A DNA stretch of 64,000 nucleotides, from contig NZ_FOTP01000001.1 in assembly GCF_900114605.1 (NCBI RefSeq), positions 1,054,001-1,118,000 on the forward strand, read 5' to 3'. Below are positions 12,847-53,512 of the stretch, piece after piece. The translations under genes and the position numbers were made by a program. How positions within the stretch are numbered: the first letter of the stretch is position 1; each line of letters opens with the position of its first letter. The notes under the pieces are model-generated. The model was given only the letters and a program-made list of their open reading frames with translations. It had not been told where the DNA came from and ran no database searches. Source of the stretch: Bradyrhizobium sp. NFR13. Lineage in GTDB: Bacteria; Pseudomonadota; Alphaproteobacteria; Rhizobiales; Xanthobacteraceae.

Positions 12847-12853
12847 CTCGAGC

Positions 12854-15333: not shown

Positions 15334-15345
15334 ATCACAGCGAGT

Positions 15346-27486: not shown

Positions 27487-27504
27487 GGGATCATCGCGGC
27501 CAGT

Positions 27505-32701: not shown

Positions 32702-32744
32702 TCTCAGAATGACTACCTTGGGCTGACGGGTCAGAGACTGGCGG

Positions 32745-34436: not shown

Positions 34437-34666
34437 CGTGACAACTCAGGTGAGCTTTTATGTGTGTCCATTTTCATGACACAGCCTTCATCGACCGTTT
34501 GTCGATGTAGCAATGGAAGTAGTCACAATGAGGTAGGCGCACCAATCGTGGCAATTAAGTAGATCGCGCCCGCATTGTCTGAACTATTCTTGACCCGCCC
34601 GTTCGCGCACGATTACGCTGTAGCGCACACTTGAGTCAGCACTCCCAGCACACTCAAGGAGACAAC

Positions 34667-35194: not shown

Positions 35195-35247
35195 TCGCAG
35201 AGACCTTTGTAATCTGCATCGCCTTGCTCCAATCTGTTGGTCGAAGA

Positions 35248-37977
35248 TCAGGAACAGGACAACGTGATCGCTCGCTCGATGACCGGTCGGTTTACGGTCA
35301 AATGCGGGTCGATCACCAGATCGAGATGCCCGCCAGCAATTGGAATAACTTCCAGTTTTGCAAACAGAGAGTCCCACCCGAGATGTGCTGGTGCCCCTCG
35401 CCGGTTGCAAAGGAACAGCGTTCCGGTGATTGGCAAGCGAGGTTTGGCACTCGCCACCCAACGGCCGAATTCCTGCATCCGGAGAATCTCCTCAAGCTCC
35501 AACTTAAGCATGAAGCGGGTGCCGGCCAGACGTGTCCAGATCCTCGCATCGAGAATTCGGCAGAACTCCACCTCCCAGTGGAGTCGAACAACGCATTTTG
35601 CGATAGCGCGACACAACATTCGGTACGCCGTGACCCGGTGCGATCTAACTCGCTGGAGCGTACGTGATAGGGTCTCCCGATAATCACTCCTGCGGGGGCC
35701 GATGTTCGTGTCCAGTATGCCCAGGAATTTCACCGACCGGCCTTCCGCAATCAGCCTAGCTGCCACTTCAAATGCGACGCCGCCGCCCAGCGAATAGCCG
35801 ATCAGACTTATGTCGCCGGTAGGATGAACGGCGTTGATCTGCTCCAGAGCCAACGTCGCCATGTGGTCGATCGAACCGCATCCAGTCAAGGCAGACGTCA
35901 GATCCGGGTAGCGGATCGGGATCACCTGAGCCGTCTTGCTCAACTGCGCCCCGAACGCCGCCAGACTTGGGCCGTAACCCATTGAACCTGGCAACATTAC
36001 AAGATGAGGGAGCAGGTCTTCGACCGGTTGGCTCCGCTGCACTTTACCTCCAGCAGCGACGATCTCGATCATGTCGGCTGCGCTCATGTCCACCGTGAAG
36101 GCCTCCATGTTGAGCTCTTCGCCAACCAGTTCTTCCAACTCCATCACGCATCGCAGAAGCTTGAGGGAATCGCCACCGGCCTCGTCCCAGCGGCCGGCAA
36201 CGTCAGTCGTGCCGAGAATCCGCGTCCATACATGCGCCACCATCCTTCCAGCCTGCTTCACTTCATCCGCCCCTGGGGGCTGAGGCGAGGGTGGACCTCT
36301 TCGGCTTTCGGCATCCAGCGCCTTGAGTTTCGCGACGTCTATCTTTCCGCCGGCGAGACGCGGAAGTTCCACGATTTCATGCAATCTGGTCGGATGTAAC
36401 GCGGTCGGAAGCGTCTGCCTGACGACCTCTCGAATGTCAGCCGTGAATGTTGCCTGGGCTTCGGCGCCGGGCGCTGCAAAAATAACCAGCTCGCTCGAGT
36501 CGGTCACGATGGCGACGGCGTCGCTCACATAGGGAATCCTTCGGACGACAACCTCGAGCTCCGCCGGTTCGACACGCCGTCCGTTGATTTTGAGTTGACG
36601 CCCCTTTCGTCCCAGCATCTGCATTAATCCGCGTGCATCGACAATAACAAGATCCCCCGTCGGGAAAATGCGGCAACGGTCGTCATCCGGGTCAGGCAAT
36701 GCAGGCAGCACCTGACCGTTCTCCCAGTAACCAAGTAGCACATGCATGCTCTTGATGATGAGCTCACCAACCTCGCCGGTGGGCACAGGTGCCCCGTTGT
36801 CGTCGACAACGGCAAACGACATTCCGGGAAGCAAATAGCCAACCGGGGGCATACTGAAATCGCTTTCTTTGCAGTCGTCGGGAAGAAACCACTGCGTGCC
36901 GGTGGTTTCGGTTGACGAATAACTGATCTGAATGAAGCAGGAGGGCCTCACGGCCTTTCGGACGAGTGCGACATCCGTCCACAACACCTTCTCACCGCCA
37001 ATACGGACAACCCGAAGCGATTCGAAATCACCGGTATCGCTTGCGGCAATCACTGCCCGCAGGAGAGCAGGAACAATATAGGTGATCGTTATCTGCTGGG
37101 ATCGGATTTGACGCAACACGCCGCGAAGACCGAGGGCCTCGACGTCCGCCATATGCAGTCTTGCGCCGGTCAGCAAGGCCGTGAGCATCTCTCTGGTGCC
37201 CGCAATGGTCGTAGGGCCGCTCAGAGGCATGAAGACATCGGTGGCGTCGATATGGCATGCATCCGCATATTGCTGGACACGTTGGAGCAAGCTGCGCTGG
37301 CTATTCACGACACCCTTTGGCTGCCCGGTACTGCCCGAGGTGTAGAGCACGAGGGCAGGCGCATCCACCGAGATCGGCTCAAGCAATGCGGTGTCGCCGA
37401 AAGGCTCATTGGCGCGCGTAATATCGATCCAACGCAGACCGTCTTCATCGATCCATTTGGTTGAGCTACTGTCGCCCTGGCCGATCAGTACAGAAATCTG
37501 CGCATTGGCAACGATGTGGGCGAGCCGCTGGTCCGGATCGCGCGGATTGAGCGGCACCAAAGGCCGCCCTGCGGCCATGCATGCAAGCATGGCGATCGGA
37601 TGCCAGATCGAGTGGCGCAATAGCAGACCGACAGCCTGCCCTTCGGGAACCACCGCTGTAATCGCCTGGGCCAGCGTCAAAACTCTGATGAGAAGATCCG
37701 AATATGTGATTTGGCGAGCGTCATCGCTAATGGCTACATTGTTCGGAAATGTCTTTGCCACCGCATCCAGATGCGTGATGGCGGGCACGCCGGCAAATTC
37801 GGCCCCCATACGATTGAACGGGCGGTCGACAGGCCCGCCCACGTCGAGAGGCAATTCGGGAGAATTCATCCAGAGGGCTTTTGCAGGCTCCCTTACATCT
37901 CCGGGAAGTGCGCGCCGACCAACGAAAGTCTTCGCGCGGTTCGGCAGGGATCCATCGGGAAATCGTTGAAGTTGCAT
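35248..37977 (-). CDS. Stand-alone adenylation-carrier-thioesterase (NRPS-like) protein
   Basis: 909 residues from ATG 37977 with GGTGAG 7 nt upstream (a GTG at 37989 lacks a site). The adenylation domain has core A3 YTSGSTGQPKG (212-222), A5 SYSSTET, A7 PTGDLV, A8 GRKGRQLKINGRRVEPAELE and A10 Lys in LAGGKIDVAKL (K545). A carrier domain with phosphopantetheine site GGDSL (S604) and a type I thioesterase with GYSLGG (S729) follow. No condensation or reductase domain is present. At the position of the A4 Asp that holds an amino acid's alpha-amine the alignment gives Ile258, so the substrate may not be an alpha-amino acid. Last gene of the exopolysaccharide operon, so it may activate an acyl or amino-acyl decoration. 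Confidence 0.88.
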   Translation of the reverse strand: MQLQRFPDGSLPNRAKTFVGRRALPGDVREPAKALWMNSPELPLDVGGPVDRPFNRMGAEFAGVPAITHLDAVAKTFPNNVAISDDARQITYSDLLIRVLTLAQAITAVVPEGQAVGLLLRHSIWHPIAMLACMAAGRPLVPLNPRDPDQRLAHIVANAQISVLIGQGDSSSTKWIDEDGLRWIDITRANEPFGDTALLEPISVDAPALVLYTSGSTGQPKGVVNSQRSLLQRVQQYADACHIDATDVFMPLSGPTTIAGTREMLTALLTGARLHMADVEALGLRGVLRQIRSQQITITYIVPALLRAVIAASDTGDFESLRVVRIGGEKVLWTDVALVRKAVRPSCFIQISYSSTETTGTQWFLPDDCKESDFSMPPVGYLLPGMSFAVVDDNGAPVPTGEVGELIIKSMHVLLGYWENGQVLPALPDPDDDRCRIFPTGDLVIVDARGLMQMLGRKGRQLKINGRRVEPAELEVVVRRIPYVSDAVAIVTDSSELVIFAAPGAEAQATFTADIREVVRQTLPTALHPTRLHEIVELPRLAGGKIDVAKLKALDAESRRGPPSPQPPGADEVKQAGRMVAHVWTRILGTTDVAGRWDEAGGDSLKLLRCVMELEELVGEELNMEAFTVDMSAADMIEIVAAGGKVQRSQPVEDLLPHLVMLPGSMGYGPSLAAFGAQLSKTAQVIPIRYPDLTSALTGCGSIDHMATLALEQINAVHPTGDISLIGYSLGGGVAFEVAARLIAEGRSVKFLGILDTNIGPRRSDYRETLSRTLQRVRSHRVTAYRMLCRAIAKCVVRLHWEVEFCRILDARIWTRLAGTRFMLKLELEEILRMQEFGRWVASAKPRLPITGTLFLCNRRGAPAHLGWDSLFAKLEVIPIAGGHLDLVIDPHLTVNRPVIERAITLSCS

Positions 37978-38089
37978 GACGGTACTCACCGTTGCGGGAT
38001 GGATATCGTAGGCTACACGTCGGCCATTGGCGTCCTTCGAGTGAATGATAGGTCTGCACCAATTTGCCGGCCTCTATCCAACTACCGGG

Positions 38090-40252
38090 TTATTCGGCGT
38101 TGGGTCGACGAAACTCCACAACGGCAAAGAGCAGGCCGGCCGTCATATTCACGCGTTTGTAGATGTAGATCGCCATTGCCGTGTTCCAGGCCACATTCGT
38201 CACGGCCGTCGCAACGGCGGCCCCTATCACTCCAAAGAAAGTAATGCCGATCGCACAGGCTGCGACATTCATGACGGCTCCGATCGCGGTGATTGCGGCT
38301 GCCGCTCGCTCATGCCCAGTCATGGTCAGAAGATTTTGCTGCGGACCAGTAGCAGCAGCAAAGATCTGTCCGACGATAAGAATTTGTGCGACCGGAGCTG
38401 TTGCAACGAATTCCTCGCCAAAAAAGCGGAGTAGCGGTACCGTCAGAAACAAAAGTGGAAGTGCCAGCACGACTGTTCCAGCCAGCGACAGGACAGTTGC
38501 TCGCGCAAACAGACTCTGAAGCGCTGCCTCATTCCGATGCGCGTGAAGCTTCGAGACATTTGGTGAAAAGAAAGTCCCTACTGCCATCCGGGGAAGAACA
38601 AGAAAAAGAGCTAGATTCAACCCCAGTGCAAAAATGCCGGCCTCATGGGCATCGCCGATCCAGCCGAGGATGATCACGCCGGCGCGGCTCATGAGAACCT
38701 CAACTCCAATCAAGATCATGACAGGGCAGGCGAGATACCACCAGTCGCGGGGCGCATAAGCCGGAACCACCGACCGTAGCTGCTGCGGCCAGAGTTTCCG
38801 CATGCTTAGTCCGACAATGGCTGCTGTGACGGCAGAGCTTGCCATCAACGCAATCAGGACCGTTGTCGCATCGATTGGCGTGACGTTGAGCGCCACGGCA
38901 AGCAGAAGCAGCACGACCATAAGGCCGTCCCGGATGAATCGTTCGGGCGCGATTGCCGAAATGACGCCACCCAGCGCGCGCACCGTAGCAGAACCGAGAA
39001 CGTAAAGCGCGACCAATGGGACGGTCGCCATGCCAACCGCCAGACTGACAGTCAACTCCCGATGGAGTGTCTCCGACAGAAATAATGCGGTGGCGATTCC
39101 GCAGATCGCAATCAATATCCCGACGAGCAATGATCGCCCGAATGCGAATTGAATGACTCCACGCGCCAATGGCCACCTTCCTGTCGCGCTATAGGCTGGT
39201 ACATATCGCAGCAGAACCGTGTTGAACCCGAGCCCCGCGATGTAGGAGAGAAGGGTCGTCCAGGCCAGCACATATGAATAGATGCCGTAGCTCGTCGCCC
39301 CTATCGTGCGGGCAATGACAAGTTGGGCCACGCACGTCAGCCCGGCGCCGCCAACATAGATAACGAATGCCCACAGGCTTGCACTGGCCAGGCGCCGAGC
39401 GAGTTCGGGTTGAGACTGAACCATGAGAGCTTCGATTGTTTCGGGCGCCGGCAGGGGTTGCGTGAGCTTCTCGGCACGAGGCTCAAAACTATCGTCCCCT
39501 GTTCCGGGTGACGAATTGAACGCCCCGTCGGGCCTGAACTTGCTGGAGACTTCCTCTTCGATACGATCGAGAGCCTTGGACATCAGGCCGGGATCGAGTG
39601 AGTTGATGCAGATCACCTGTTGATGCTCGGCCGCAAGCAGCGAGCCCACGTAATCAGTAATCGGCTTTGCCTTGAGAAATGTACCTACATCAGGCTCGAA
39701 CCATTTCTCCATGTAGGTTTTTTGGTGCACTCGCTGGTGGAGGCGCTGTTCCAACAGCTCCTTCGGAGCATCAAATCGGATTAGCAGATCGGATTGCGTC
39801 CTCATGCCGATTGCACGAGCAATCGTCTTCTCGTCTGCTCGGCTAAACAGCGCCAAGGTGCAAACGACCTGCACAAAGCCCTGGTCGAACAAGACTATGC
39901 GATCGGGCTTGTGCGAATCTCTCCACACGCAGGAAAACCGGACGACGTATTGGCTAAGCCTGACCCACCAGACGGGATTGTTGGGTGGCATTAGTCGGAG
40001 CAGGTCCTTCGCCAGACGCAGCCCTCGGGCATTTGCAACAGGACGGCACAAGATTGCGATGGTGGCGAAGATCGCGAGAGAGACGCGCTGCAGTGCCGGA
40101 AGAAATCCACCAAAATTTAGAAGATGATTAGATAGATGCGGCAACATAAGTACGAGGTCGACCTCATACCCACGGTCACGCAGGCGCTGAGCGAGTGCCC
40201 GGCTGAAAGTTGTTTTGCCGGCGCCAGGTGGACCAAAGGTCTCGATAATCAT
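38090..40252 (-). CDS. Fusion: N-terminal P-loop (thymidylate-kinase-like) kinase + C-terminal Wzx-type flippase
   Basis: 720 residues in one uninterrupted frame. Residues 1 to about 235 form a P-loop kinase-like domain: GPPGAGKTTFSRAL at 7-20, DRIVLFDQGFVQ as the Walker B/DR-type strand, and a lid region LLEQRLHQRVHQKTYMEKWF. A charged linker (about 235-290) leads to a polytopic domain (about 295-720) of roughly 12 helices with the Wzx/MATE-like pattern ARTIGATSYGIYSYVLAWTTLLSYIAGLGFNTVLLRYVP. The flippase would move lipid-linked repeat units across the inner membrane. The kinase half might phosphorylate a lipid or sugar, or regulate the flippase. Flanked by the co-polymerase gene (7-bp gap) and the A-T-TE gene. 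Confidence 0.85.
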   Translation of the reverse strand: MIIETFGPPGAGKTTFSRALAQRLRDRGYEVDLVLMLPHLSNHLLNFGGFLPALQRVSLAIFATIAILCRPVANARGLRLAKDLLRLMPPNNPVWWVRLSQYVVRFSCVWRDSHKPDRIVLFDQGFVQVVCTLALFSRADEKTIARAIGMRTQSDLLIRFDAPKELLEQRLHQRVHQKTYMEKWFEPDVGTFLKAKPITDYVGSLLAAEHQQVICINSLDPGLMSKALDRIEEEVSSKFRPDGAFNSSPGTGDDSFEPRAEKLTQPLPAPETIEALMVQSQPELARRLASASLWAFVIYVGGAGLTCVAQLVIARTIGATSYGIYSYVLAWTTLLSYIAGLGFNTVLLRYVPAYSATGRWPLARGVIQFAFGRSLLVGILIAICGIATALFLSETLHRELTVSLAVGMATVPLVALYVLGSATVRALGGVISAIAPERFIRDGLMVVLLLLAVALNVTPIDATTVLIALMASSAVTAAIVGLSMRKLWPQQLRSVVPAYAPRDWWYLACPVMILIGVEVLMSRAGVIILGWIGDAHEAGIFALGLNLALFLVLPRMAVGTFFSPNVSKLHAHRNEAALQSLFARATVLSLAGTVVLALPLLFLTVPLLRFFGEEFVATAPVAQILIVGQIFAAATGPQQNLLTMTGHERAAAAITAIGAVMNVAACAIGITFFGVIGAAVATAVTNVAWNTAMAIYIYKRVNMTAGLLFAVVEFRRPNAE

Positions 40253-40259
40253 GCTGCCC

Positions 40260-42215
40260 TCAATCGCTTCTCAACCAATTGCGGGGGTTCAGTTTGGGCG
40301 ATCCAGGGCGCTTCAGCTCGATTGCGTCGCCGCCCCACGGTCGCCAAGTGATTGCTCTCTTTGAGCGCTGGCGGAATGCGTCCCACGTCCTCTTGAACAA
40401 TTGCTGCGCGCGCTCACCGAACTGGTCCTGCTGTGGCGGTTCGACGCGAGTTAAGACCGACGAGAATCTCGTGCTCTGGGCGGGGCTGAGATGTTCCGTC
40501 CGAATAAGTTGATGCAGCGCGGTCTGTGCCGCCTCACGATCAGTGCTCCCCGCGTGAATGGCGAGCAAAACGTGGTCAGCCCAACTCGCCAGCAGCCTTG
40601 CTTCCGGGGCTTCCAGCAGCGAGGGTCCGTCGATGATCACGAAATCATAAGTGTCGCTCAGTTGCCGGAGCAACGAAGGAACTTTGGGGTCGGAGAGAAT
40701 CCGAAGCCGATGTCCCCCGAACGGTGTTGCGGGCAGATAGTCAATTCCGGACTCATGGATATGTTCGATCGCGTCTGCCAGTGGGCGGCCATACGCCAGT
40801 ACACTGTGCAAGTTAGCGGTCTCGCCACCCGGTCGGCGAGTGAATTGACCAAAGTCAAGGATTAGAGTGCGCCACCCGAGCCGCGCAGCGTAAAGACCAA
40901 GGCTCCAGGCTAGCGTGGTCTTGCCTTCCCCACCGATGCTGGAGCTGACGAGGACAACACGCTGCGATCGTGGGGTTGCCGGGTCAGAGGCCAGTATGGA
41001 TACCAGAATGGAGCGAATTGCTCTGGCATAGTGGCTTGCAGGTTCCTCCAAAACATAATGCGGCTGCTTGCCTGACTCCAGTGGAATTGAAGGTATCAGT
41101 CCGGCACATGGAATACGCAAAGCTTCAGCGGCGTCAGCCTCCGTATGCAGGGTCCGATCGAAGTGGTTCAATATGACTGCGAGAACGCAACCCAGCAGAG
41201 CGAAGATAATTACGGCAGGAGGAATCATCAGTAACGGGTGTAATGAAGTCGGTCGTTCTGGCGGCGTGGCCGTGGCGAGAATACTGACGTCTGATTGCGC
41301 GGTCAGACCTTTTGCCGTTAGCTCCTGCCGTCGCCGCAGGAGCGTTTCAAACTGTTGCGCCAGCGTGGTGACCTGCCACTCCAGCGCAGCGTTCCGGGAG
41401 GGCGAGGCCTGACCAAGACGGGAGGCTTTTAGTTCCTCCTCCGCCTTTACAAGGTCCCGCTGAACTTTGGATGATTGTGTCGCGAGGGAGCTCAAGGCAT
41501 ACTCCACGTCGCTTTGCTTCTGACGCGTGACCTCATCGACATACGATTGTGCCACCGTATTGGCGATTTCCGCCGCTCGTTGCGGATCGGAGGCCGTGGA
41601 GGTAACGGCAATGATTCTGGAGCGCCGTTCCTGGCCAACCCTCAGGCTGCGCTTTAACGCAGCGAGAGCGGCCCCGTCATCGGGCTCGTGGCTTTTACCA
41701 AGCAGCAGCTCCTTGGTTGCAGACCATGTACGACGAAAGAGCGTGCGCAAGCTCTGCATCCACGTTCCTGACCCAGCTGCCGCAGCGTGCCTCGCGTCCT
41801 CGAGAGCGCGGAGCGTTGGAAGAAGTCTCCGCAGATAGGCGTCGGAGAGCAGCACCGTGACATGCGTGTCGATGGTGGATTCCTCAGCGGCCGGTGTAGG
41901 TGCTGCGGACGCACCGCCGGCATTCAAGACATCGGCTGCGCCGGATTGTCGAACGTCAACAGCGAGTTGTGCCGTCGTCATGTAGGACGGTGACATAAGA
42001 AGGCCAGCGACTCCGGCCAGCAGGGCGCCGATGACAATCATCCTGACGACAAGCCGCTTGTACTTCCGCACACTATCAAGCACGCACTTCAATGACTGGA
42101 GACCGTCATTTGAAGCCGGGGATTGTTCCGTCAAGCGTCGCCCAAATTCATCCTCTGTCAGATCCGGCGAAAGAGCCTGCAGCGGTCGAATGCGCCTTCC
42201 TACTAACGCTTCCAT
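40260..42215 (-). CDS. Exopolysaccharide chain-length/co-polymerase protein (Wzz domain + BY-kinase-like domain)
   Basis: 651 residues. Membrane helix 1 (about 56-75), a periplasmic Wzz domain with coiled coil, helix 2 (about 326-350) and a cytoplasmic BY-kinase-like ATPase: Walker A SSSIGGEGKTTL (GK at 431-432), Walker A' LILDFGQ (D454 kept, the second Asp of the usual DxD replaced by Gly456), Walker B FVIIDGPSLL. The C-terminus has no tyrosine cluster, so autophosphorylation like Wzc is doubtful. It controls polymerisation and export of the polysaccharide with the Wzy-like protein and the ExoF-like protein. RBS GGAGCGA precedes ATG 42215. Confidence 0.9.
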   Translation of the reverse strand: MEALVGRRIRPLQALSPDLTEDEFGRRLTEQSPASNDGLQSLKCVLDSVRKYKRLVVRMIVIGALLAGVAGLLMSPSYMTTAQLAVDVRQSGAADVLNAGGASAAPTPAAEESTIDTHVTVLLSDAYLRRLLPTLRALEDARHAAAAGSGTWMQSLRTLFRRTWSATKELLLGKSHEPDDGAALAALKRSLRVGQERRSRIIAVTSTASDPQRAAEIANTVAQSYVDEVTRQKQSDVEYALSSLATQSSKVQRDLVKAEEELKASRLGQASPSRNAALEWQVTTLAQQFETLLRRRQELTAKGLTAQSDVSILATATPPERPTSLHPLLMIPPAVIIFALLGCVLAVILNHFDRTLHTEADAAEALRIPCAGLIPSIPLESGKQPHYVLEEPASHYARAIRSILVSILASDPATPRSQRVVLVSSSIGGEGKTTLAWSLGLYAARLGWRTLILDFGQFTRRPGGETANLHSVLAYGRPLADAIEHIHESGIDYLPATPFGGHRLRILSDPKVPSLLRQLSDTYDFVIIDGPSLLEAPEARLLASWADHVLLAIHAGSTDREAAQTALHQLIRTEHLSPAQSTRFSSVLTRVEPPQQDQFGERAQQLFKRTWDAFRQRSKRAITWRPWGGDAIELKRPGSPKLNPRNWLRSD

Positions 42216-42226
42216 AGCTCGCTCCT

Positions 42227-44215
42227 CTACTGTGCGGGCTCGAGGGTGTCTGTCGATCGGACCGTTCTCTGTTCAACTGTCGTTTCCAGCCATGACTGCA
42301 ACATCAGGACGGCCCATAGCGTTCGGGAATGATCACGATTGCCACTCAGATGATCCTGCCAGCAGTTCTGAATCCTTTGCGCATCCAGTAAATTCTGGCG
42401 GCGAAGGCGCGCTTCGGAGAGCAGGTCTGCAGCCCATGAGCGCAGAGGGCCTTTCAACCAGGCGCCCACAGGCACGTCGAATCCTTGCTTGGGTCGATCT
42501 ATCAAGTGGCGCGGCAAGTAACGATTGAGAACCTGCCGCAAGATCCACTTGCCCTGCCCGTCGCGCACCTTGGCCCTGTTCGGCAGCCGCCAGGAGAATT
42601 CCACGACGCGATGGTCCAGAATTGGACAACGCGCCTCCAGGCCTGTCGCCATGCTGGCGCGATCGAGCTTCACCAGAATGTCCCCGGGGAGATACCCGAT
42701 CATGTCGCGCACAATGAAGTCGGACAGAAGATCGTTCAGCGGCGGCACGTTGCTCGAATCGGAGACCGTCTGCTCCGGGGTTAATTGCAGCTCGGAAAGC
42801 CGCATGACTTTCCGGTACATCTCGTCGGCGTCATTGCCTGCAAACAGTTGCGCAAGGCGATTAATCCGGTCGCTTCCGATCATCCGTCGCAGGCGGCCTG
42901 AAAGAGGCAGGGCGTCAGCGACGTCCTCCCGGATACCGCGGGCGAGCAACGACACACCCATTGCTGCTGTTCGCCGAACTGCCCGATTGGAGTTAAGGAG
43001 GGGAGCCAGACGGGCAGTCAAAAGATGCCTGGAATATCCGGCAAAACATTCATCGCCGCCGTCACCGGAGAGGACAACAGTTACATCCTGGCGCGCGAGA
43101 CGAGATAGCAGCAGTGTCGGAATCTGCGACTCGTCGGCGAATGGCTCGTCCCAAATGCGGGGCAGCTCGGGAATGACATCTCTGGCCTCCGAGGGAGTGA
43201 GACGTAGCTCCGTGTGGTCCGTGCCGAGGTGATGGGCCACAGCCGCGGCACTGGCTGCTTCATCGAAGGCGGGTTCGCCGAAACCAATAGTGAACGTGCG
43301 GACTGGCCGGCTGGATTGGGATTGCATCAGGGCGACGACAGTTGAACTATCGATGCCACCGGACAGAAATAGCCCGATTGGCACGTCGGCAACCATGCGC
43401 TCACTGACCGCCTCACGAAGCAAGCCATCAAGATGCGACACGAGCTGGCAATCATCCGCCGACACGAGGTTTTCTCGGCCGCTCTTTGCGATGTCAGTCA
43501 GCGACCACCAAGTATGCGTCTTTGCTCGAAGCTCTGCAGCATCCTGCGATGCCAGAAGATCATCGGCGTCGAAAGATAGAATGCTGCCGGGTGGAAGTTT
43601 GAAGACGTTTCGCCATATGCAATGTTCGTCCGGTAACCAGCCGCGGGCGAGAAACTCAGCGACCCCGCACGGATTGATCTCCGGATGGAAATCGGGGAAC
43701 GCATCGATCGCCTTTAATTCTGAAGCAAAGACAGCGGCGTTTCGCGTTCTGGTGACGTAGAGGGGCTTCTTTCCCATTCGATCGCGAGCTAGATGGAGAG
43801 TGCGGGTCTGGCGATCCCAGAGACCGATTGCGAAGATGCCGTTGCTGCGCTTCAGGGCTGCCTCAAATCCCCATCTCTCGATCATCGCGAGCAAGACTTC
43901 GGTATCGCTGCTGCCGATGAAGGTCTGGCCGAGACGTTGGAGCTCCTGTCGCAGCGACAGGTAATTGTAAATCTCGCCATTGAACGTGACGACGAACCGG
44001 CCGCTCTCGGAAAGCATCGGTTGACGCCCCGCGTCCGTGAGGTCAACGATGGCTAGCCGGCGATGCCCGAATGCAATCCCGGCGTCGCGATCACACCACG
44101 AACCGTCGGCATCAGGTCCGCGATGGTGCAAACGATCCGTCATTCGACCGATCGCATTCAGATCGGCGGATCGGGAAGCTCGTGGCATCTGAAGAATTCC
44201 GGCGATTCCACACAT
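42227..44215 (-). CDS. asnB: Glutamine-hydrolysing asparagine synthase-type amidotransferase
   Basis: 662 residues. N-terminal Ntn glutaminase with catalytic Cys2 (MCGIAG), HHRGPDADG, FNGEIYNY and SSDTEVLLA. C-terminal synthetase domain with the PP-loop LSGGIDSS (285-291), SGDGGDECFAGY and RASMATGLEARCPILDH. AsnB homologues in polysaccharide clusters often amidate sugar carboxyl groups instead of making asparagine; that role is inferred from the position between the polymerase and co-polymerase genes. Only 3 bp separates it from the wzy-like stop. Confidence 0.9.
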   Translation of the reverse strand: MCGIAGILQMPRASRSADLNAIGRMTDRLHHRGPDADGSWCDRDAGIAFGHRRLAIVDLTDAGRQPMLSESGRFVVTFNGEIYNYLSLRQELQRLGQTFIGSSDTEVLLAMIERWGFEAALKRSNGIFAIGLWDRQTRTLHLARDRMGKKPLYVTRTRNAAVFASELKAIDAFPDFHPEINPCGVAEFLARGWLPDEHCIWRNVFKLPPGSILSFDADDLLASQDAAELRAKTHTWWSLTDIAKSGRENLVSADDCQLVSHLDGLLREAVSERMVADVPIGLFLSGGIDSSTVVALMQSQSSRPVRTFTIGFGEPAFDEAASAAAVAHHLGTDHTELRLTPSEARDVIPELPRIWDEPFADESQIPTLLLSRLARQDVTVVLSGDGGDECFAGYSRHLLTARLAPLLNSNRAVRRTAAMGVSLLARGIREDVADALPLSGRLRRMIGSDRINRLAQLFAGNDADEMYRKVMRLSELQLTPEQTVSDSSNVPPLNDLLSDFIVRDMIGYLPGDILVKLDRASMATGLEARCPILDHRVVEFSWRLPNRAKVRDGQGKWILRQVLNRYLPRHLIDRPKQGFDVPVGAWLKGPLRSWAADLLSEARLRRQNLLDAQRIQNCWQDHLSGNRDHSRTLWAVLMLQSWLETTVEQRTVRSTDTLEPAQ

Positions 44216-44218
44216 GAT

Positions 44219-45472
44219 CTAGCTTCCGATGCGCGTACGTGGCGGCGAGGCCTGCACCGATCCGAGGATCAGGCTGAGAGCAAACGCGAACCACACGATG
44301 GGATGACGCAAGATGAAATGGCTGATGCTGAAAATAGCCAGCGCAACGAACAGTGCTGCAAGGGCATCGAGCTTCGCGCGGAACATGAGTATGAACGTTC
44401 CTGCGAAGAGACCGCAAACGGCAATCACAGCGAGCAGACCGCCTTGCGTAAATATATCCAGCAGTGTGCTGTGGGCTTCGAAAGGAGTTGGAAGCGCCTT
44501 GTTATTGGCGACGTTCGGCTTCTCGAGATGCGGACCCGGCCCCAGGCCAACCGATCCAGCTTCCAGCCCCCGATGGAGTGCATCTCCCCAGAGTTGCAGT
44601 CGCAGGGATGCGGTGCGCTTCGTTGCCTCACCACCACGGTCCTTCGCCAAACTGATCGCCAGACCTTCAAACTCATCGGCGGTCGCGACGGCATACGGTG
44701 CGAATGCGAGTGCCAGAGGAACGGCGGCGGCAATGACCAGAACCGCTACCACAGACCGGAAATTCAATCTGTGCTGTGGCGAGGTCAGCCAACTGCGCAA
44801 ACGCAGCACAGAAAAGACCGCGGTGGCAGTCACCATCGCAACGAGAAACGTATCGCTTTTGGTCAGCCGCCCGACGGCGAAGGTTAGCAGGCAACTGAAC
44901 GATCCTGCTATGCGGCCAACCCCTTTGGCCGATAGGGCAAGACTGAGAGACAGCGGCGTCAAAACGGCGCAATAGAGCGCAATCTGATTGGGATTCTCCG
45001 CCCAGCCTCGAAATCGATCCCAGTACCATGGATCAACCGACGGCAGGCTGATGATGGACCAGCCTGCAGCGATCTGAAGGACCAGTGCGACGTTCCAGAA
45101 GGCGATCAGGAACCATTGGGTTTGCCGTATGGCAGCGTTGGCTTCCATCGTTGCGACGATGAGACAGGTCAAGGTTGCCACCAAAAGATACGCGAAGGCG
45201 TCATGCAACATCGAGGGAAGGTCCAGCTCCTGGCTCAGATAGGCCACGCATGTCCCTATGCTCAGGGCGAGTGCAAGACAGGCCCAAAACGCACCGATTC
45301 GGAGCAAGGCTGTCGCGTTGTAAATCTGGCCGGTAACGATGATTCGCAATGAGACGAAGGCCAGCCACAGGACGAGACAGACCTCGCCAACACCCAACGG
45401 AATTCCCGGAAGGCGCAGCTGTGAAGCTGTGGTAAGTACGATGCCAAAAGAGAGAAGCGCATTGGCGATCAT
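44219..45472 (-). CDS. O-antigen ligase/polymerase-type membrane protein (Wzy-like)
   Basis: 417 residues with about ten hydrophobic helices. The large periplasmic loop carries KRTASLRLQLWGDALHRGLEAGSVGLGPGPH and FEAHSTLLDIFTQGG, the Wzy_C/O-antigen ligase pattern (Arg and the HST-L-D-I motif). It would polymerise lipid-linked repeat units at the periplasmic face after Wzx transport. ATG 45472 overlaps the preceding glycosyltransferase stop by 4 bp. Ligase and polymerase cannot be separated from sequence alone; context favours polymerase. Confidence 0.88.
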   Translation of the reverse strand: MIANALLSFGIVLTTASQLRLPGIPLGVGEVCLVLWLAFVSLRIIVTGQIYNATALLRIGAFWACLALALSIGTCVAYLSQELDLPSMLHDAFAYLLVATLTCLIVATMEANAAIRQTQWFLIAFWNVALVLQIAAGWSIISLPSVDPWYWDRFRGWAENPNQIALYCAVLTPLSLSLALSAKGVGRIAGSFSCLLTFAVGRLTKSDTFLVAMVTATAVFSVLRLRSWLTSPQHRLNFRSVVAVLVIAAAVPLALAFAPYAVATADEFEGLAISLAKDRGGEATKRTASLRLQLWGDALHRGLEAGSVGLGPGPHLEKPNVANNKALPTPFEAHSTLLDIFTQGGLLAVIAVCGLFAGTFILMFRAKLDALAALFVALAIFSISHFILRHPIVWFAFALSLILGSVQASPPRTRIGS

Positions 45473-46689
45473 GGTACTTTTCCGCTGTGCTGGCTCACCC
45501 TTCGATCTTCATGGATGTCGCGGGATAAAACAGTCGACTCTCCACTTCGCCTCCCGGTGAAAACCAGCTTCCTGTAAAGATCGGCGTAACGGTCAGCCAC
45601 GACGTTCAGGTCGAATTCACGGCGCACGAGTGCGATCGAGCGCTGCCCCATGCTCTTTGCGCGGACAGGATGCTGGAGAAGATCGAGAATGGCAGCGGCG
45701 AGCGCACGCGGATCCCGGGGCGGCACCAGATGGCCATTACAGTTCTCCACCACAACATCACCGCAGCCCGGCATACGCGTGGCGACAATAGGCACACCCG
45801 CCAATCCTGCTTCCAACAGAACACGGGGAATTCCTTCGCGATACTCCGTCGGGAAGGCGAAGACATTCGCGATCCCAAGAAGCGAAGGAACGTCGGATCG
45901 CGCACCGAGAGCGATTACGTGTGGCGCGTATCGATCAATCAAAGCCTGATCCACAGCAAAAGGACCTTCACTCTCCCTTGGCCCGACAAGCAGGAAACGA
46001 ACGTTGGGTCGCGCTTCGCGGACAATCGCCGCCGCATCTAGAAGCGTGGGTATACCCTTTTGTACTGTCAGCCGGCTCACAGTCATGACGACTTCATCGT
46101 CGCCGATTCCAAGTTCTGTACGAAGTTGTGCAGCGGGCGGCGCTTGGTCCCGCGCCGTCTCGAAAGCATCGACATCGATTCCCGAACTTCCGATCAGTAC
46201 AGCGGGGCTTTTGCCAAGCAGACGGTAACGGCGGAAAAAGTCACTATCCTCCTTGTTCTGAAATACCGTTGCCGAGGTCCAGCAGGCGGCCAGCCGCTGC
46301 AGCGCCAGGTAGGCCGGTCTGAATGCAAGAGCTTTCAGGTGTGCCGAGGAGAATACCCAACCCATTCCGTTGATGGTGCGCACAATGGGGATTGTCCCTC
46401 TCACCGCGAGAGGAGCAAGCAGATTTGGTTTGGTATCGAACGTTTGAACAACATCCGGTCGAATGCCACGCACAAGCTGTGAGAGCTGGCCGACGGCCTG
46501 GCGGTCGGCAACTCGTGCGCCGAACCTGTTGAAGTCATAGCGATGATACTCGATGCCACTATTTGAGAACGGGAATGCTGCGCCGGTGCCGGCAGCGCTC
46601 ACCCGGAAACCACGACTGCGCAGAGCTGCCAGAAATGGAATCCGCAGGGCATGATCCTCGCCTCCCACGCAAAGCACATGCAACGTCAT
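45469..46689 (-). CDS. Glycosyltransferase family 4
   Basis: 406 residues with a GT-B fold. The N-domain has VLCVGGEDHALRIPFLAALRSRGFRV and QTFDTKPNLLAPLAVRG; the C-domain has VSRLTVQKGIPTLLDAAAIV, FLLVGPRESEGPF and the EX7E motif in EYREGIPRVLLEAGLAG. It transfers a sugar to the lipid-linked repeat unit in the cytosol. The TFDTKPN and INGMGWVFSS stretches resemble the CapM/PglA-type subgroup that acts on UDP-N-acetyl-sugars. RBS AAAGGAT precedes ATG 46689. First gene of the downstream exopolysaccharide block. Confidence 0.92.
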   Translation of the reverse strand: MTLHVLCVGGEDHALRIPFLAALRSRGFRVSAAGTGAAFPFSNSGIEYHRYDFNRFGARVADRQAVGQLSQLVRGIRPDVVQTFDTKPNLLAPLAVRGTIPIVRTINGMGWVFSSAHLKALAFRPAYLALQRLAACWTSATVFQNKEDSDFFRRYRLLGKSPAVLIGSSGIDVDAFETARDQAPPAAQLRTELGIGDDEVVMTVSRLTVQKGIPTLLDAAAIVREARPNVRFLLVGPRESEGPFAVDQALIDRYAPHVIALGARSDVPSLLGIANVFAFPTEYREGIPRVLLEAGLAGVPIVATRMPGCGDVVVENCNGHLVPPRDPRALAAAILDLLQHPVRAKSMGQRSIALVRREFDLNVVADRYADLYRKLVFTGRRSGESTVLSRDIHEDRRVSQHSGKVP

Positions 46690-47056: not shown

Positions 47057-47755
47057 TCAATTGCCGGGAGAAGGCAGGACGGCGACACGCCCGAGCAAGG
47101 CAACCAGCTCCGCCTGCCGCCGTGTCTGTGTCTTGACAAACAGGGATGCCAAGTGTGAGCGGATCGTCGTTCGGCTCAGCCGTCGGGAGCGAGCGATATC
47201 GAGCAAATTATGGCCCCGCGCCAATTCGACTGCAAGCTGGGTTTCCGCGGCTGTGAAGCCGAACAAACACCGAAGCGCCTGGGGCGTCGGCTCTGGATGA
47301 GCGTCGAGATCGAGCAGAATGATGGTGCTGGTTTCATCCGTCCAGACATTGACCATCTGGCTCACAAGGCTGGTGACGCCCTCCTTGAAGGAAGTCGCAA
47401 GCCATGATGTCGAGCCAACGGGAATCTGGGCCCCCGCGCGATTCACCAGCTGCTTTACGGCGCTGTAGAGTGTTTCAGGGCTGGCGGTGATTTTGTACTC
47501 GCGTTCCAATATCGCACGCCCGATCGCACTCACGTCGAGCACGCAACCACGCTTGAGCAGAACTTGCCCGCAGCCAACACGCGCCAGAACCGCGTGCAGT
47601 ACGTCGCGTTGTTCGCCAAGGTCGGGCTTCTTGTCTGGATCAGCGTCTGGCCTGACAAGAGGAGCGCGATTCGAAATGTTGAAGATTGATTCCCTGCAGG
47701 GATGAAGCGATGCAATTGCTCCTGGCAATGCGGCACTCTGGTTCAAGTTCAACAT
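47057..47755 (-). CDS. LuxR-type HTH regulator within the exopolysaccharide locus
   Basis: 232 residues. The C-terminal LuxR/GerE HTH is clear: FGFTAAETQLAVELARGHNLLDIARSRRLSRTTIRSHLASLFVKTQTRRQAELVALL. The N-terminal 165 residues show no receiver signature and may be a PAS-like or ligand-binding domain (RGCVLDVSAIGRAILEREYKI, TSTIILLDLDAHPEP). Related one-domain LuxR proteins are common in rhizobia beside polysaccharide genes. It lies between two same-strand exopolysaccharide blocks and probably controls one or both. ATG 47755 has GGGAA about 7 nt upstream. Confidence 0.85.
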   Translation of the reverse strand: MLNLNQSAALPGAIASLHPCRESIFNISNRAPLVRPDADPDKKPDLGEQRDVLHAVLARVGCGQVLLKRGCVLDVSAIGRAILEREYKITASPETLYSAVKQLVNRAGAQIPVGSTSWLATSFKEGVTSLVSQMVNVWTDETSTIILLDLDAHPEPTPQALRCLFGFTAAETQLAVELARGHNLLDIARSRRLSRTTIRSHLASLFVKTQTRRQAELVALLGRVAVLPSPGN

Positions 47756-48049: not shown

Positions 48050-49324
48050 TCAATTGGATGCGCTGGCTACTCCCGAAGCGCGCAGCGAAACTTCGACCAC
48101 GTCTCCCGGCTCTACATCGAAATCAACCGATGCCGCGATCCTGCTCCACTGCTGGCCGACCTTTCGCGCGATCGTTATTTCTGGTCGGAGATCGCTGGTT
48201 CCGACCGGTAGCGCTCCCGCACCACCGACAGGCTGCAATTTTTGACTCAACGCCTGCAATTTAACCCGCAGGTCCGCCATGCGAACGGTTGAATCCTTCA
48301 GCTCGCGCAGCAGATTGATGGTTCGCTGGCTGGCGACTCGCTCGATCTGGCGCAGAAAGTCTTCGCGCTGACGTTGCAGCCGCATGACTTCGACCATCGT
48401 CTGAAGACGCCGTGTCGACGACAACAAAAGAGCGCGTCGGCTTTCCGTGACACGAGGGCTTGGCAATGATCCTGAGCCAAATAACTTGACCACCCGATCC
48501 AGCTCATCCTCATCAGCCTGCACACCCTTTTCCTCACCGTCCTGCTGCTTTCTGAGGGTTACTAGCTGCGCATCGGATTGCTTTACAGCATCCTCCAGAA
48601 AGCTTCGTTCCTTGCGGAAGTCGATTTGCGCGGTCTTTAGCGACGCCGCCTCGGATTGCACGAGTGGCTCGATGACCGAGTCCGGCAAAGATACCTCGCT
48701 GGGCACCTTCTGATCGAATTTATCATTACCCAGGATTTCCGCATTGGTGCGGGCAACGTGAAAGTACTCCTTGATATACTCCGTCGAGAGAGATTGGTAA
48801 TCGCGCAACAGATCCGCCGGATCGGTGGCGCCGATCTGACCGCGAGAACGCAACAGGCTAAAGCCACCAGCGACCGCAACGGCTTGGCGTACCGTCATGG
48901 ACGCGCGATACACCAGCTGCCCGGGCGTGAGAACGTCGCCAGTGACATAGATGGGTCGATACTCCACGACACTCGTGATCACGTCCCCAGGCTTGATGAC
49001 CAGCGCCTGCTCGCGCCCGTCCGGTGAGCGCTGACGCAGGATCCTGGACTGCAGCAGCGTCTCCATGCGGGTCTGAAGTTCCGCAGGGGTCAAACCGGCA
49101 ACCGGCACTGTACCGACTCCGGGGAGAGCAACGGTGCCGTCAATCTGGATCTGAGCTCTATTGCGCTGTTCAGGTGCCCCACCGACCGCCACCTCGATAG
49201 TATCGCCGGGCGCGAGGCTGTATTGAGATCCAAGGCAAGCGTCGCTGCTCACCAGGACAACGATTCCTGCCCAGAGGCTGATGGAGACATAGCTGAAAGT
49301 TTTACTGCGCCTGTTGTCTTTCAT
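48050..49324 (-). CDS. Polysaccharide export protein, ExoF-like (Poly_export/SLBB + coiled coil)
   Basis: 424 residues from ATG 49324, with AAGGAGAT at good spacing; the longer frame to 49534 lies over the preceding gene. A signal-type helix (SISLWAGIVVLVSSDACLG) precedes the export domain YSLAPGDTIEVAVGG, IQIDGTVALPGVGTVPVAGLTPAEL. An SLBB-like part reads RPIYVTGDVLTPGQLVYRASMTVRQAVAVAGG. A coiled-coil region of roughly 150 residues (EAASLKTAQIDFRKERSFLED to LRELKDSTVRMADLRVKL) and a short C-terminal beta region (VEPGDVVEVSL) follow. The order and length match S. meliloti ExoF (421 aa). It would form or gate the outer-membrane exit. Overlaps the propeller gene by 23 bp. Confidence 0.88.
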   Translation of the reverse strand: MKDNRRSKTFSYVSISLWAGIVVLVSSDACLGSQYSLAPGDTIEVAVGGAPEQRNRAQIQIDGTVALPGVGTVPVAGLTPAELQTRMETLLQSRILRQRSPDGREQALVIKPGDVITSVVEYRPIYVTGDVLTPGQLVYRASMTVRQAVAVAGGFSLLRSRGQIGATDPADLLRDYQSLSTEYIKEYFHVARTNAEILGNDKFDQKVPSEVSLPDSVIEPLVQSEAASLKTAQIDFRKERSFLEDAVKQSDAQLVTLRKQQDGEEKGVQADEDELDRVVKLFGSGSLPSPRVTESRRALLLSSTRRLQTMVEVMRLQRQREDFLRQIERVASQRTINLLRELKDSTVRMADLRVKLQALSQKLQPVGGAGALPVGTSDLRPEITIARKVGQQWSRIAASVDFDVEPGDVVEVSLRASGVASASN

Positions 49325-50594
49325 GACGATCTCCTTGCGCCAAGCTGCTTCCACTGTCTCGATCAGCCCAGTCGATGCGGGAAACAAAATCAAATACCGG
49401 CCCGCCTCGTTGCCCCCAGTTGCTCGACCAGATGACTTGCGAGCCATCAGGAGAAGGTGAGCCGTGCGTTTCGCTCCAATAGTCATACGGAGCATTGCGC
49501 GTATGCGCGATACGTCGAAATTCGCCGCTACCATCGATTTTCAATGCGATAACTTCCTGAGCGAACGGGGCCACTTTCTTACCGCCGGCGGGAGCGAGCG
49601 CGGCGCCGGCATAACTCAGGAAGACCCAACCGGGGCGGCGTATCGCTCGCATCGATGCATGCTGAGCTTCGCCATAGGGAGCGAGCGCCGTGACTTGTCC
49701 GTCCTGGAGCCTCCGTTTGATGACCTGATATTTGTCAGGCACCGACTTGCTGATGCCGACATAAACTTCGTGGCCATCGACATCGACGGTCATGTCGCCG
49801 TGGCCGGGCCGATGGTGCTCGGTCCAGCTCTGCAGGAGATCGCCCTCGACGCTGAAGACAAATGCTTGATCCGTGAAATCAATGAGAGACTGCTGGCAGA
49901 ATATGTACTTGCCCAGCGGCGAGATCCCGCAATAGTTGTTCTTGCCCGGAATTCGCGCCAGCTCAATGTCGGGGAATTTCCGGCGATCCAAAAGATCCAA
50001 CGCAAATGCGACAAGCGTACCCTGTTGGCTGATGGCGCGTACTACGATGCGGTTACCGTCCCATGAAGGATTGCCCTTGTAGGGGCCGAACTGAAGCTCG
50101 CTATATGCTTCAGCATCAAGAATCACATCTTCGGCGTTGCTTCGCGGCGCCCATCGCGAAATGCGACGCCCGGCGACACAAATCATGAGCTCTGGATCTT
50201 GCGGGTGCCATTCGCATTCCCCTCCGCGCTGTCGCCGGAACAGTGGGGCATAAGTGCGCCCATCAAGAAAGCACAGGCCATTGCATCCGTTGACAATCAA
50301 AAGCAGGCTCTGGTCGGCATTCCACGCCTGCGCACTCGAATAGCGATGAGTGCAATAAGAACGCTTGCAAGCCAAACCGTTTCCCATCGGATTGTCAGGC
50401 GTGGTCACACGTACAAAGGTCGTGCCGAGGGATGCCTCGGTGGCTGGCGCGAGATAGCCAGGCAGATCCATGGCAGGCGCCGGGAGGAATTGGGCGTTTG
50501 CGAGCGATTCCGTTGAGGCAGGTCTCGAGGACACGAGCAAGACAAGGGCGCCACAGCACAGCAGAGCTCGGGCATAACCCAGCCGGGCCATCAT
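49302..50594 (-). CDS. Secreted beta-propeller-like protein of unknown function in the exopolysaccharide operon
   Basis: 430 residues from ATG 50594, chosen because it overlaps the dehydratase stop as ATGA and has AGAGGGA upstream. A signal peptide (GYARALLCCGALVLLVSSRPASTES) is followed by WD40/PD40-like blades: YSSAQAWNADQSLLLIV, CEWHPQDPELMICV, GNPSWDGNRIVVRA, and HGSPSPDGSQVIWSSNWG. Several Cys pairs (CKRSYCTHRY, CNGLCFL) suggest disulfides. The fold resembles oligogalacturonate-lyase or TolB-like propellers. In this operon it might process or bind the polymer in the periplasm. I do not recognise a specific family. Confidence 0.75.
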   Translation of the reverse strand: MMARLGYARALLCCGALVLLVSSRPASTESLANAQFLPAPAMDLPGYLAPATEASLGTTFVRVTTPDNPMGNGLACKRSYCTHRYSSAQAWNADQSLLLIVNGCNGLCFLDGRTYAPLFRRQRGGECEWHPQDPELMICVAGRRISRWAPRSNAEDVILDAEAYSELQFGPYKGNPSWDGNRIVVRAISQQGTLVAFALDLLDRRKFPDIELARIPGKNNYCGISPLGKYIFCQQSLIDFTDQAFVFSVEGDLLQSWTEHHRPGHGDMTVDVDGHEVYVGISKSVPDKYQVIKRRLQDGQVTALAPYGEAQHASMRAIRRPGWVFLSYAGAALAPAGGKKVAPFAQEVIALKIDGSGEFRRIAHTRNAPYDYWSETHGSPSPDGSQVIWSSNWGQRGGPVFDFVSRIDWADRDSGSSLAQGDRHERQQAQ

Positions 50595-51598
50595 GTGATG
50601 AAATCCCTCTGCCGCCGGACTTGCTTTCCCGAAAGGCGATGACGCCACCAGTCAACTGTCCGTTCCAACCCTTCCCGCAGCGTGACCTGCGGTGACCATC
50701 CCGTTGCATGGACGAAGCGGGTGCAATCAGCGAGCAACGCTCGCACTTCCGAATTTGTCGGCCGCAGACGCTTCTCCTCCTGAAGCACAGGCTTGTCGCT
50801 GGAAGTAAGATCGACGATGACGTCAATCAGGTCGCGGATCATGATCGCCCGCTGACTGCCTGCGTTATATGGCTGGCCGTATTCGATACCTTCGGCCAGC
50901 CCGGCAGCCATGAACGCGGCTGCCGTATCTGCAACGAATGTGAGATCGCGTACGGTTGTTGCATCCCCGATCATGATCGCGGGGCAAGAGGGATCGAGTG
51001 CTTGCCGTATGATGGCGGCGATGATCGCCCTCTCGCTTTGCCGTGGCCCAAACGTATTGAACGGCCTGAGGATGACGACCGGCACGCCGAACGACTTCGC
51101 GAAAGCCCCCGCCATCATGTCTGCGGCAATTTTGGAGGCGGAGTAAGGCGATTGTCCCTGTAGCGGATGATTTTCATCGATCGGCATTGTTATGGCCGTG
51201 CCGTAAACCTCGCTGGTCGACGTGTGAATGACCCGCTCTGTGCCGTGTTGCCGCGCGGCTTCGAGCACATTCAAGGTGCCGAGCACGTTCGTTTCGACAT
51301 AGGATTGCGCAGCGACGTAGGAATAGGGGATCGCAATCAGTGCTGCGAGATGAAAAACGATTTCGTGGCCGGGCACGAGACGACCGATGAAAGCCGCATC
51401 GCGGATGTCACCGCGAACGAGATTGACTTTCTTTCGGGTCGAATCCGGCAAATCATCCAGCCAACCATGGCTGTCGAAGGAATTGTACTGGGCAAGCGCG
51501 GTAACATTGGCTCCTGCCGAAACAAGCGCTTCGGTCAGGTGCGAACCAATGAAGCCATCGGCTCCCGTAACGAGAATTCTGGCACCAAGGTAACTCAT
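50591..51598 (-). CDS. NAD-dependent 4,6-dehydratase, LegB-like
   Basis: 335 residues from ATG 51598. Extended SDR: TGADGFIG (11-18), VRGDIRDAAF, catalytic Y152-x3-K156 (PYSASK), TSTSEVYGTA and RPFNTFGPRQS. The ALAQYNSFDSHGWLDDLP and HLAALIAIPYSY stretches match the LegB/WbjB-type UDP-GlcNAc 4,6-dehydratase subgroup rather than GDP-mannose dehydratases. It would make a UDP-4-keto-6-deoxy sugar. The aminotransferase at 52311 is the natural next step, giving a 4-amino-4,6-dideoxy sugar for the polymer. Overlaps the propeller gene by 4 bp. Confidence 0.9.
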   Translation of the reverse strand: MSYLGARILVTGADGFIGSHLTEALVSAGANVTALAQYNSFDSHGWLDDLPDSTRKKVNLVRGDIRDAAFIGRLVPGHEIVFHLAALIAIPYSYVAAQSYVETNVLGTLNVLEAARQHGTERVIHTSTSEVYGTAITMPIDENHPLQGQSPYSASKIAADMMAGAFAKSFGVPVVILRPFNTFGPRQSERAIIAAIIRQALDPSCPAIMIGDATTVRDLTFVADTAAAFMAAGLAEGIEYGQPYNAGSQRAIMIRDLIDVIVDLTSSDKPVLQEEKRLRPTNSEVRALLADCTRFVHATGWSPQVTLREGLERTVDWWRHRLSGKQVRRQRDFIT

Positions 51599-51603
51599 GG
51601 CCG

Positions 51604-53447: not shown

Positions 53448-53512
53448 GTGTTTATCTCCGATCCCGGATTCAGCGAAACGTTTGAGCGGTACGGGCAACA
53501 ACGGTGTCAGCG

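Follow-up and report, generated by a model that had tools for sequence, protein, structure and literature searches.

The 64,000-nucleotide stretch of Bradyrhizobium sp. NFR13 analysed here (contig NZ_FOTP01000001.1, positions 1,054,001 to 1,118,000; hereafter the window) carries, at 35248..37989 on the minus strand, a gene for a 913-residue protein in which adenylation (A), carrier or thiolation (T) and thioesterase (TE) domains follow one another. Judged by its placement and by the company it keeps in other genomes, this A-T-TE gene is a core part of the surrounding exopolysaccharide (EPS) locus. We tentatively propose, with somewhat less than even confidence, that the protein is a cytoplasmic enzyme that acylates the repeat unit of this EPS, with an acidic acyl group loaded onto the carrier and passed by the TE to an EPS precursor. 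The evidence comprises the domains, the catalytic residues, the aligned pocket residues, and the linkage to and co-occurrence with EPS genes.

On its domain content, the protein is a nonribosomal peptide synthetase (NRPS)-like enzyme that joins A, T and TE in one chain, keeps their catalytic residues and has no condensation (C) domain. The A domain (residues about 75-549; 36343..37767, minus strand) is matched by AMP-binding PF00501 over residues 75-422 (7.6e-64), and AMP-binding_C at 477-549 reaches 21 bits, under its 24.5 cut-off. Pfam gives no PP-binding score to the protein; the carrier (residues about 575-640; 36070..36267, minus strand) is recognised from an alignment with EntF and from Ser608 in a GGDSL motif. 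The TE domain (35251..36012, minus strand; Thioesterase PF00975, 2.4e-16, residues 662-762) contains the triad Ser733-Asp760-His888. Among PDB chains that match from A through T into TE, EntF scores best (residues 77-772), and this continuous match is the feature shared with EntF and the NRPS termination modules; the C domain and the amino acid pocket of EntF have no counterpart here. Pfam detects no C domain in the A-T-TE protein, and PF00668 has 0 matches genome-wide. The protein has no hydrophobic stretch and should therefore work in the cytoplasm. The original prediction of an A-T-TE protein without a C domain at the end of the operon is thus borne out in reading frame, domains, catalytic residues and placement.

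Conservation was counted in a 33-row alignment that leaves out rows shorter than 850 aa or below 30% identity and holds 31 distinct proteins (L076 is the window protein itself, and L020 equals L077). Lys549 of the A domain, Ser608 of the carrier, and Ser733 and Asp760 of the TE are each found in 31/31, the two serines that had been predicted to be kept among them. His888 is present in 30/31; the sole exception is L018, whose frame continues into the next gene. In this Mesorhizobium sp. AR07 locus (11980-15717(+)), the A-T-TE and a NadE-like gene form a single 1245-aa open frame lacking the TE His, for which the PLSDB gene table gives only the nadE part. The frame predicted at 35248-37977 is real, but its start at 37977 is an internal ATG (Met5), and the open frame runs on to 37989, where a GTG start yields the 913 residues. 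Since Val4 and Met5 do not vary across a 10-row alignment, translation more likely begins at the GTG or further upstream.

The A-domain pocket carries the argument about the substrate. In GrsA numbering, checked against 1amu, the family code is I235 A236 R239 Y278 R299 G301 S/G322 K517, and the window protein has I262-A263-R266-Y304-R329-G331. Among the 31 distinct proteins, I235, A236 and R239 are conserved in all 31, Y278 and R299 in 30, and G301 in 29; at position 322, 21 have Ser, nine Gly and one Ala, and positions 330 and 331, which could not be placed with confidence, were not used. Ile262 (37204..37206, minus strand) takes the place of GrsA Asp235, the residue that binds the alpha-amine, in 9/9 pairwise alignment settings. 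This is the Ile258 of the original prediction, renumbered from the GTG, and the replacement stands. Arg266 (37192..37194, minus strand) falls on position 239 in 9/9 settings, and Arg329 (37003..37005, minus strand), replaced by Lys in one of the 31 proteins, falls on position 299 in six of nine. With Asp235 lost, an alpha-amino acid is disfavoured as the substrate, and the two arginines speak for a substrate with an acidic group; in Asp/Glu-type A domains, charged code residues bind charged side chains. The substrate predicted from the pocket is thus an anionic, dicarboxylate-like acid without an amino group, in preference to an aryl acid. The Asp-less pocket was correctly anticipated, but the "aryl, keto or hydroxy acid" deduced from it needs revision, as the arginines point away from an aryl acid and fit an acidic dicarboxylate-like acid better, with which a hydroxy or keto diacid is still compatible. 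A canonical NRPS is ruled out by the missing C domain and by the invariant Ile in place of Asp235.

The A-T-TE gene is the last of a minus-strand gene run that begins with a LuxR-type regulator. By gene content the run is a Wzx/Wzy-type EPS locus, with an initiating transferase, Wzx, Wza and Wzc present and Wzy assigned by hydropathy and position only. The gene order p232 - GT4 - p417 - AsnB - Wzc - (Wzx) - A-T-TE is kept in Tardiphaga and in six Bradyrhizobium loci (65-67% identity), and Wza precedes p232 in these loci wherever the locus extends that far. Named relatives, with 92 and 93% identity in the A-T-TE protein, place the genome of the window itself near Tardiphaga robiniae. Matches to the A-T-TE protein are found in 11/296 genomes of the family (E <= 1e-70), eight of them with at least 50% identity over nearly the full length, in 14/397 genomes of the order (E <= 1e-72), and in 9/398 genomes of the phylum, eight of the nine coming from the order.

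An orthologue of the operon AsnB (59-100% identity) occurs in 13/397 order genomes, and all 13 lie within the 14 that have A-T-TE (Fisher p 1.7e-23, relatedness ignored). The AsnB limit of 1e-230 was fixed before the result was known and leaves out weaker AsnB proteins; both surveys of 397 order genomes are taken as the same draw. The sole A-T-TE genome of the order without the orthologue (G611) has a protein 38% identical to the A-T-TE of the window. The 13 genomes with both genes span four families of the order (f1, f16, f20 and f24). In G498 and G517, the A-T-TE stands at the head of a second gene block (module 2, below) with AsnB elsewhere on the same contig, so that the pairing is independent of adjacency.

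Thirty-three loci with a long A-T-TE gene were compared (the window included as L076, L020 and L077 being the same protein, and rows below 700 aa or 250 bits dropped). At least two EPS gene families lie within 8 kb in 24 of the 33, and at least two module 2 families in seven. Six loci have neither. Among these, L034 adjoins NadE2 close to a contig end, L016 has genes annotated as a lipopolysaccharide biosynthesis protein and a family 2 glycosyltransferase, GT4 and Wzy_C genes are present in L068, and L075 has a Polysacc_synt gene at its cut-off; the other two are L017 and L069, discussed below. The A-T-TE relatives of L016 and L017 (about 50% identity) sit on pMLb and pUSDA76, two plasmids that are typed as conjugative. 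The original prediction had offered two products, an acyl group for the polymer and a small co-expressed compound; because the A-T-TE gene sits in the EPS locus and co-occurs with it in four families, the former is favoured over an unrelated small product.

A second carrier module appears to belong to the same pathway. It lies outside the window, which is why the original prediction does not include it. On contig C10 of the same genome, a protein that shares 48% identity with the C-terminal portion of the A-T-TE heads a row of genes for a NadE-like protein (PRK00876), then an AsnB, an AMP-binding ligase and an acyl carrier protein (ACP). This module 2 recurs as a single block, headed either by a TE-only protein or by a full A-T-TE; it is contiguous with EPS genes in G219 and G292 and lies beside Wza and p448 in G498 and G517. 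Its ligase, nearest to TIGR03098 (490.8 bits, cut-off 592.35), is present in 14/20 A-T-TE genomes versus 0/24 comparison genomes (Fisher p 3.4e-7, relatedness ignored). The 24 were hand-picked from genomes without an A-T-TE match (eight from the genus of the window, 13 from g49 and three others), and the 20 include G217 and G611, with proteins 34% and 38% identical, and G069, with a ligase 53% identical to the query. Six A-T-TE genomes have no such ligase (G217, G363, G428, G579, G611 and G650), so the pathway there must run without module 2 or with another. The ligase pocket has Asp at position 235 and the code D-Y-Y-P-T-T-M in 13/13 aligned rows (11 distinct, the 53% relative of G069 excluded); its Asp235 makes it look like an amino acid enzyme, unlike the A-T-TE. 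The AsnB proteins of both modules retain their key residues, with Cys2 in 23/23 and 11/12 rows (the twelfth lacks its N-terminus) and SGGxDS in 23/23 and 12/12 (21 and 11 distinct rows, respectively). The NadE-like protein of the PRK00876 kind in module 2, seen at L033 10556-11806(+), may not be a housekeeping NAD synthase.

The head protein of module 2 has repeatedly been reduced. A single branch with support 100/99 separates the module 2 TEs (11 rows) from the remainder of a 33-row TE tree. By match ranges, the protein has no A domain in eight genomes (G000, G001, G009, G016, G219, G292, G515 and G549); the carrier motif GGDS is missing from 8/8, and the five aligned sequences all retain the TE triad. 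The G496 protein keeps its A domain and has lost the stretch with the C-terminal subdomain and the carrier. A full A-T-TE is encoded elsewhere in all nine genomes with a reduced protein. The A-less forms fall at three places in the tree, one of them sister to an intact form (the Tardiphaga pair, 96/95), with some of the intervening branches weak; the losses of A and T would number at least two and probably three. In G498 and G517, where the module 2 protein is the only A-T-TE match, A and T are retained. Though the numbers are small, this pattern is what would be expected were a single A-T able to supply two TEs in trans; running counter to such sharing, G593 and G014 retain both proteins whole. 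Alternatively, the module 2 TE could serve the ACP.

The phosphopantetheinyl transferase whose existence elsewhere in the genome the original prediction had left to be confirmed is represented by a single PF01648 match, and 4PPT_N, the Sfp type, has no match in this genome. The PF01648 frame, which we take to be AcpS, lies between two frames that are presumably pdxJ-like and lepB-like, judging from their sequences. Among 20 A-T-TE genomes, 10 have just one PF01648 match and seven have a 4PPT_N match, so the search is able to detect enzymes of the latter kind. The lone PF01648 match and the lack of 4PPT_N make AcpS the likely primer here, and the A-T-TE carrier is thus probably primed by AcpS.

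In the mechanism that we tentatively favour, we infer the substrate class, acyl transfer instead of hydrolysis, the acceptor and the role of AcpS. The A domain would adenylate a non-amino, anionic, dicarboxylate-like acid and load it onto its own carrier domain, and the TE would deliver the acyl group to a nucleophile on the EPS precursor ahead of flipping by Wzx. A nucleotidyltransferase, a LegB-like dehydratase and a DegT aminotransferase, all encoded in the operon, should give a 4-amino-4,6-dideoxy sugar nucleotide. No acetyltransferase or other acyltransferase, N-acyltransferases included, is found among the Pfam matches of the operon genes, the rest of the genome not having been searched. 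Since no N-acyltransferase is recognised in the operon, the 4-amino group made by the LegB/DegT pair would be the likeliest acceptor. Most simply, then, the A-T-TE may supply the N-acylation step or another acyl substituent.

Several points weigh against this mechanism. We know of no demonstrated case in the A-T-TE family of an NRPS-type TE transferring to a sugar amine, and the TE triad is equally compatible with hydrolysis. The co-occurrence links the A-T-TE to the whole locus and to no single step. At the place of the dehydratase, the Bradyrhizobium loci have a gene just 27-28% identical to that of the window, so a different sugar may be made there even though the pocket of the A-T-TE is unchanged. 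In the pocket, an Arg is not placed at 299 in three of the nine pairwise settings, and both arginines could pair with acidic residues of the protein, not with the substrate. An AlphaFold model of the full A-T-TE, built from a 10-row alignment, reached a mean pLDDT of 41.8 and a pTM of 0.29 and is unusable for pocket geometry. Any of p417, p448 and p232, which have no strong family match, could hide another acyltransferase. Finally, no polysaccharide gene is seen beside the A-T-TE in L017 (by annotation) or in L069 (three neighbours scanned).

The two modules can also be combined into a wider scheme that we consider rather improbable, the two-carrier assembly of an EPS substituent without a C domain. 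The A-T-TE would activate an acidic non-amino acid, and the module 2 ligase and ACP an amino acid; AsnB and the NadE-like protein, as ATP-dependent enzymes, would amidate; and the two sister TEs would join the acyl groups or deliver them to the polysaccharide, one TE repeatedly losing its own A and T because the A-T of the other protein serves both.

An unlikely but still credible alternative makes the carrier a site of tailoring. The acid would be altered while bound to T, for example through amidation of a second carboxylate by AsnB, the TE would free it, and another enzyme would use it for the EPS. In each module, an adenylating enzyme and a carrier are indeed accompanied by an AsnB with intact key residues, AsnB and A-T-TE co-occur in 13/13 genomes, and an A-T-TE that did nothing but hydrolyse what it had loaded would be futile if no such step intervened. 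Against this, the Pfam matches of the operon contain no recognised enzyme to use a freed acid, and, in the accessible portion of one report, WbpS and WbqG of the TIGR03108 family are tied to uronamide formation on sugars (PMC7468200).

A free small molecule (a signal, a metallophore or a dimer), produced by the A-T-TE together with module 2 and merely co-expressed with the EPS, is in our view an unlikely product. A-T-TE proteins elsewhere, the quinone synthetases, give small products according to the accessible part of PMC10316625; the relatives in L017 and L069 have no recognised EPS genes alongside; and an ABC transporter with an HlyD-type protein is encoded at 27484-30929(+), 4-8 kb off on the opposite strand. 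The tie to EPS in 13/13 genomes and 24/33 loci, across four families, speaks against it, the ABC/HlyD pair lying outside that test. The ordinary loading of an alpha-amino acid, as in D-alanylation systems, is very unlikely: the top model for the A domain is amino acid adenylation TIGR01733 (241 bits, cut-off 317.4) and the module 2 ligase has Asp235, but all 31 distinct A-T-TE proteins have Ile there. The least credible candidate, dimerisation of two alpha-keto or aryl acid units by the TE in the manner of RalA or atromentin synthetase, has the same domain order and the absence of Asp235 in its favour and is opposed by the EPS linkage and by a code with Ile in 31/31 at position 1, where Val marks the alpha-keto dimerising class in the portion of PMC10316625 available, and Arg in 30/31 at position 5, where Ile/Val or Asn is reported there. 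These last two candidates were set aside on the pocket.

Upstream of the A-T-TE, all on the minus strand, the operon encodes a Wzx-type flippase with an N-terminal P-loop kinase-like domain (38090..40252; PF01943 4.3e-11, weak AAA_33) and a Wzc-like chain length determinant with a C-terminal P-loop domain (40260..42215; family scores under cut-offs except AAA_31). These are followed by the AsnB-type amidotransferase (42227..44215; best E-value to TIGR03108, 558 bits, cut-off 816.9), the polytopic membrane protein p417 (44219..45472; nine hydrophobic stretches and no family match), a probable Wzy polymerase, and a GT4 glycosyltransferase (45469..46689). Further along lie p232, with a weak LuxR-type HTH match (47057..47755; GerE 0.0035, HTH_40 0.0015), a Wza-type polysaccharide export protein (48050..49534; PF02563 3.1e-15), and p448 (49302..50648), a conserved protein with no Pfam or NCBIfam family and one N-terminal hydrophobic stretch, which overlaps its neighbours and has an uncertain start. 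The sugar and initiation genes comprise the LegB-like NAD-dependent sugar 4,6-dehydratase (50591..51607; TIGR04180 393 bits, cut-off 475), the initiating sugar-phosphate transferase (51604..52308; PF02397 1.9e-46, TIGR03025 under cut-off), the DegT family sugar aminotransferase, PseC/ArnB-like (52311..53501), and the sugar nucleotidyltransferase (53513..54265; PF00483 1.4e-37). The LuxR-type regulator is at 54793..55728 (PF00196 1.9e-20). A promoter and terminator scan of 34300-40400 gave one hit against a shuffle mean of 2.3 and five against 5.7, and the operon borders are not set by it.

Several neighbouring features recur as well. The Wzx/kinase fusion has no match in the six Bradyrhizobium loci; in L054 (G579) it is split into two frames, and L018 and L057 have a stand-alone kinase-like gene (27-28% identity) beside the A-T-TE. 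The protein p448 recurs in 9/25 loci compared, several of the others ending short of its place. Convergent with the A-T-TE lies a gene (34631-35194(+)) whose 187-aa product belongs to no Pfam family and has a single hydrophobic stretch, at its N-terminus; this gene is kept beside the A-T-TE in the Tardiphaga loci and in 5/6 Bradyrhizobium loci. Beyond it, at 31050-34436(-), a gene for a 563-aa repetitive, coiled-coil-looking protein is followed by NMT1-like and VasI-like genes; the synteny of this group with the A-T-TE holds for the Tardiphaga loci and most Bradyrhizobium loci. An outer membrane protein of the alginate-export family is encoded at 61310-62746(-) (4e-138).

Carrier-based acylation of a surface polymer is known in principle, and here it would be built from different parts. 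In D-alanylation of teichoic acids (DltA-DltC-DltB) and glycinylation of lipopolysaccharide (LPS; Alm), acyl groups reach a surface polymer by way of an adenylating enzyme and a carrier, as described in the accessible text of PMC3783018. The module 2 ligase and ACP resemble DltA and DltC in parts, whereas the present locus, of the Wzx/Wzy type, has a fused A-T-TE, a TE, no Asp235 and no recognised membrane acyltransferase. No acyltransferase of the DltB MBOAT or AlmG LPLAT type is found among the operon Pfam matches, p417, p448 and p232 having no strong family and the rest of the genome not having been searched. Judged by the A-T-TE pocket, which is not that of an amino acid specific A domain, and by the recognised parts, this is not a Dlt/Alm system.

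What is shared with the XrtA/PEP-CTERM systems is a TIGR03108-type AsnB, a TIGR03098-type ligase accompanied by an ACP, and Wza, Wzc, GT4 and an initiating transferase; here, the A-T-TE and the NadE-like protein are added, and the scores fall under the curated cut-offs (558 of 816.9 and 490.8 of 592.35). The exosortase PF09721 is matched in 0/20 A-T-TE genomes by a search whose control was positive in 1/14 named genomes, so that its sensitivity is little tested. With no exosortase match and both family scores under cut-off, an XrtA system was set aside. As in the quinone and furanone synthetases (atromentin, polyporic acid, RalA), the domain order is A-T-TE with no C domain, but the proteins here have Ile at code position 1 and Arg at positions 3 and 5, and a different genomic setting.

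The attachment of an aminoacyl group to a sugar amine has a precedent in the Wbp/Vim pathway of the P. gingivalis linking sugar, whose partly similar gene set includes a TIGR03108-type AsnB. According to the portion of PMC7468200 available to us, a seryl group is put on the sugar amine, WbpS of the TIGR03108 family amidates the sugar acid to a uronamide, and placement of the amino acid is ascribed to VimA, which that study matches to N-acetyltransferases and FemAB; that portion mentions no A-T-TE, and it shows that an AsnB alone can have a carrier-free role. Two asparagine synthetase genes, as here, occur in the conserved EPS cluster of Zoogloea resiniphila and Aquincola tertiaricarbonis in the accessible text of PMC9012009. 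An asparagine synthase in the EPS cluster of Thauera MZ1T (PMC4784049, seen in part) decided nothing here, and the accessible part of PMC9850573 contains nothing bearing on this question. In the open-licence literature, as represented by titles and abstract openings, we found no description of an A-T-TE in an EPS locus.

The sister TE protein, which has repeatedly lost A and T, makes carrier sharing in trans a testable idea. Since the relatives of the AsnB and of the module 2 ligase bear NCBIfam names from XrtA/PEP-CTERM systems, the answer here may bear on those systems as well. If the proposed acylation is true, the thioesterase could itself be the acyltransferase, an unfamiliar way to decorate a bacterial surface sugar, and an NRPS-type A-T-TE fixed in a polysaccharide locus would extend carrier-protein chemistry to the EPS of soil and plant-associated bacteria.

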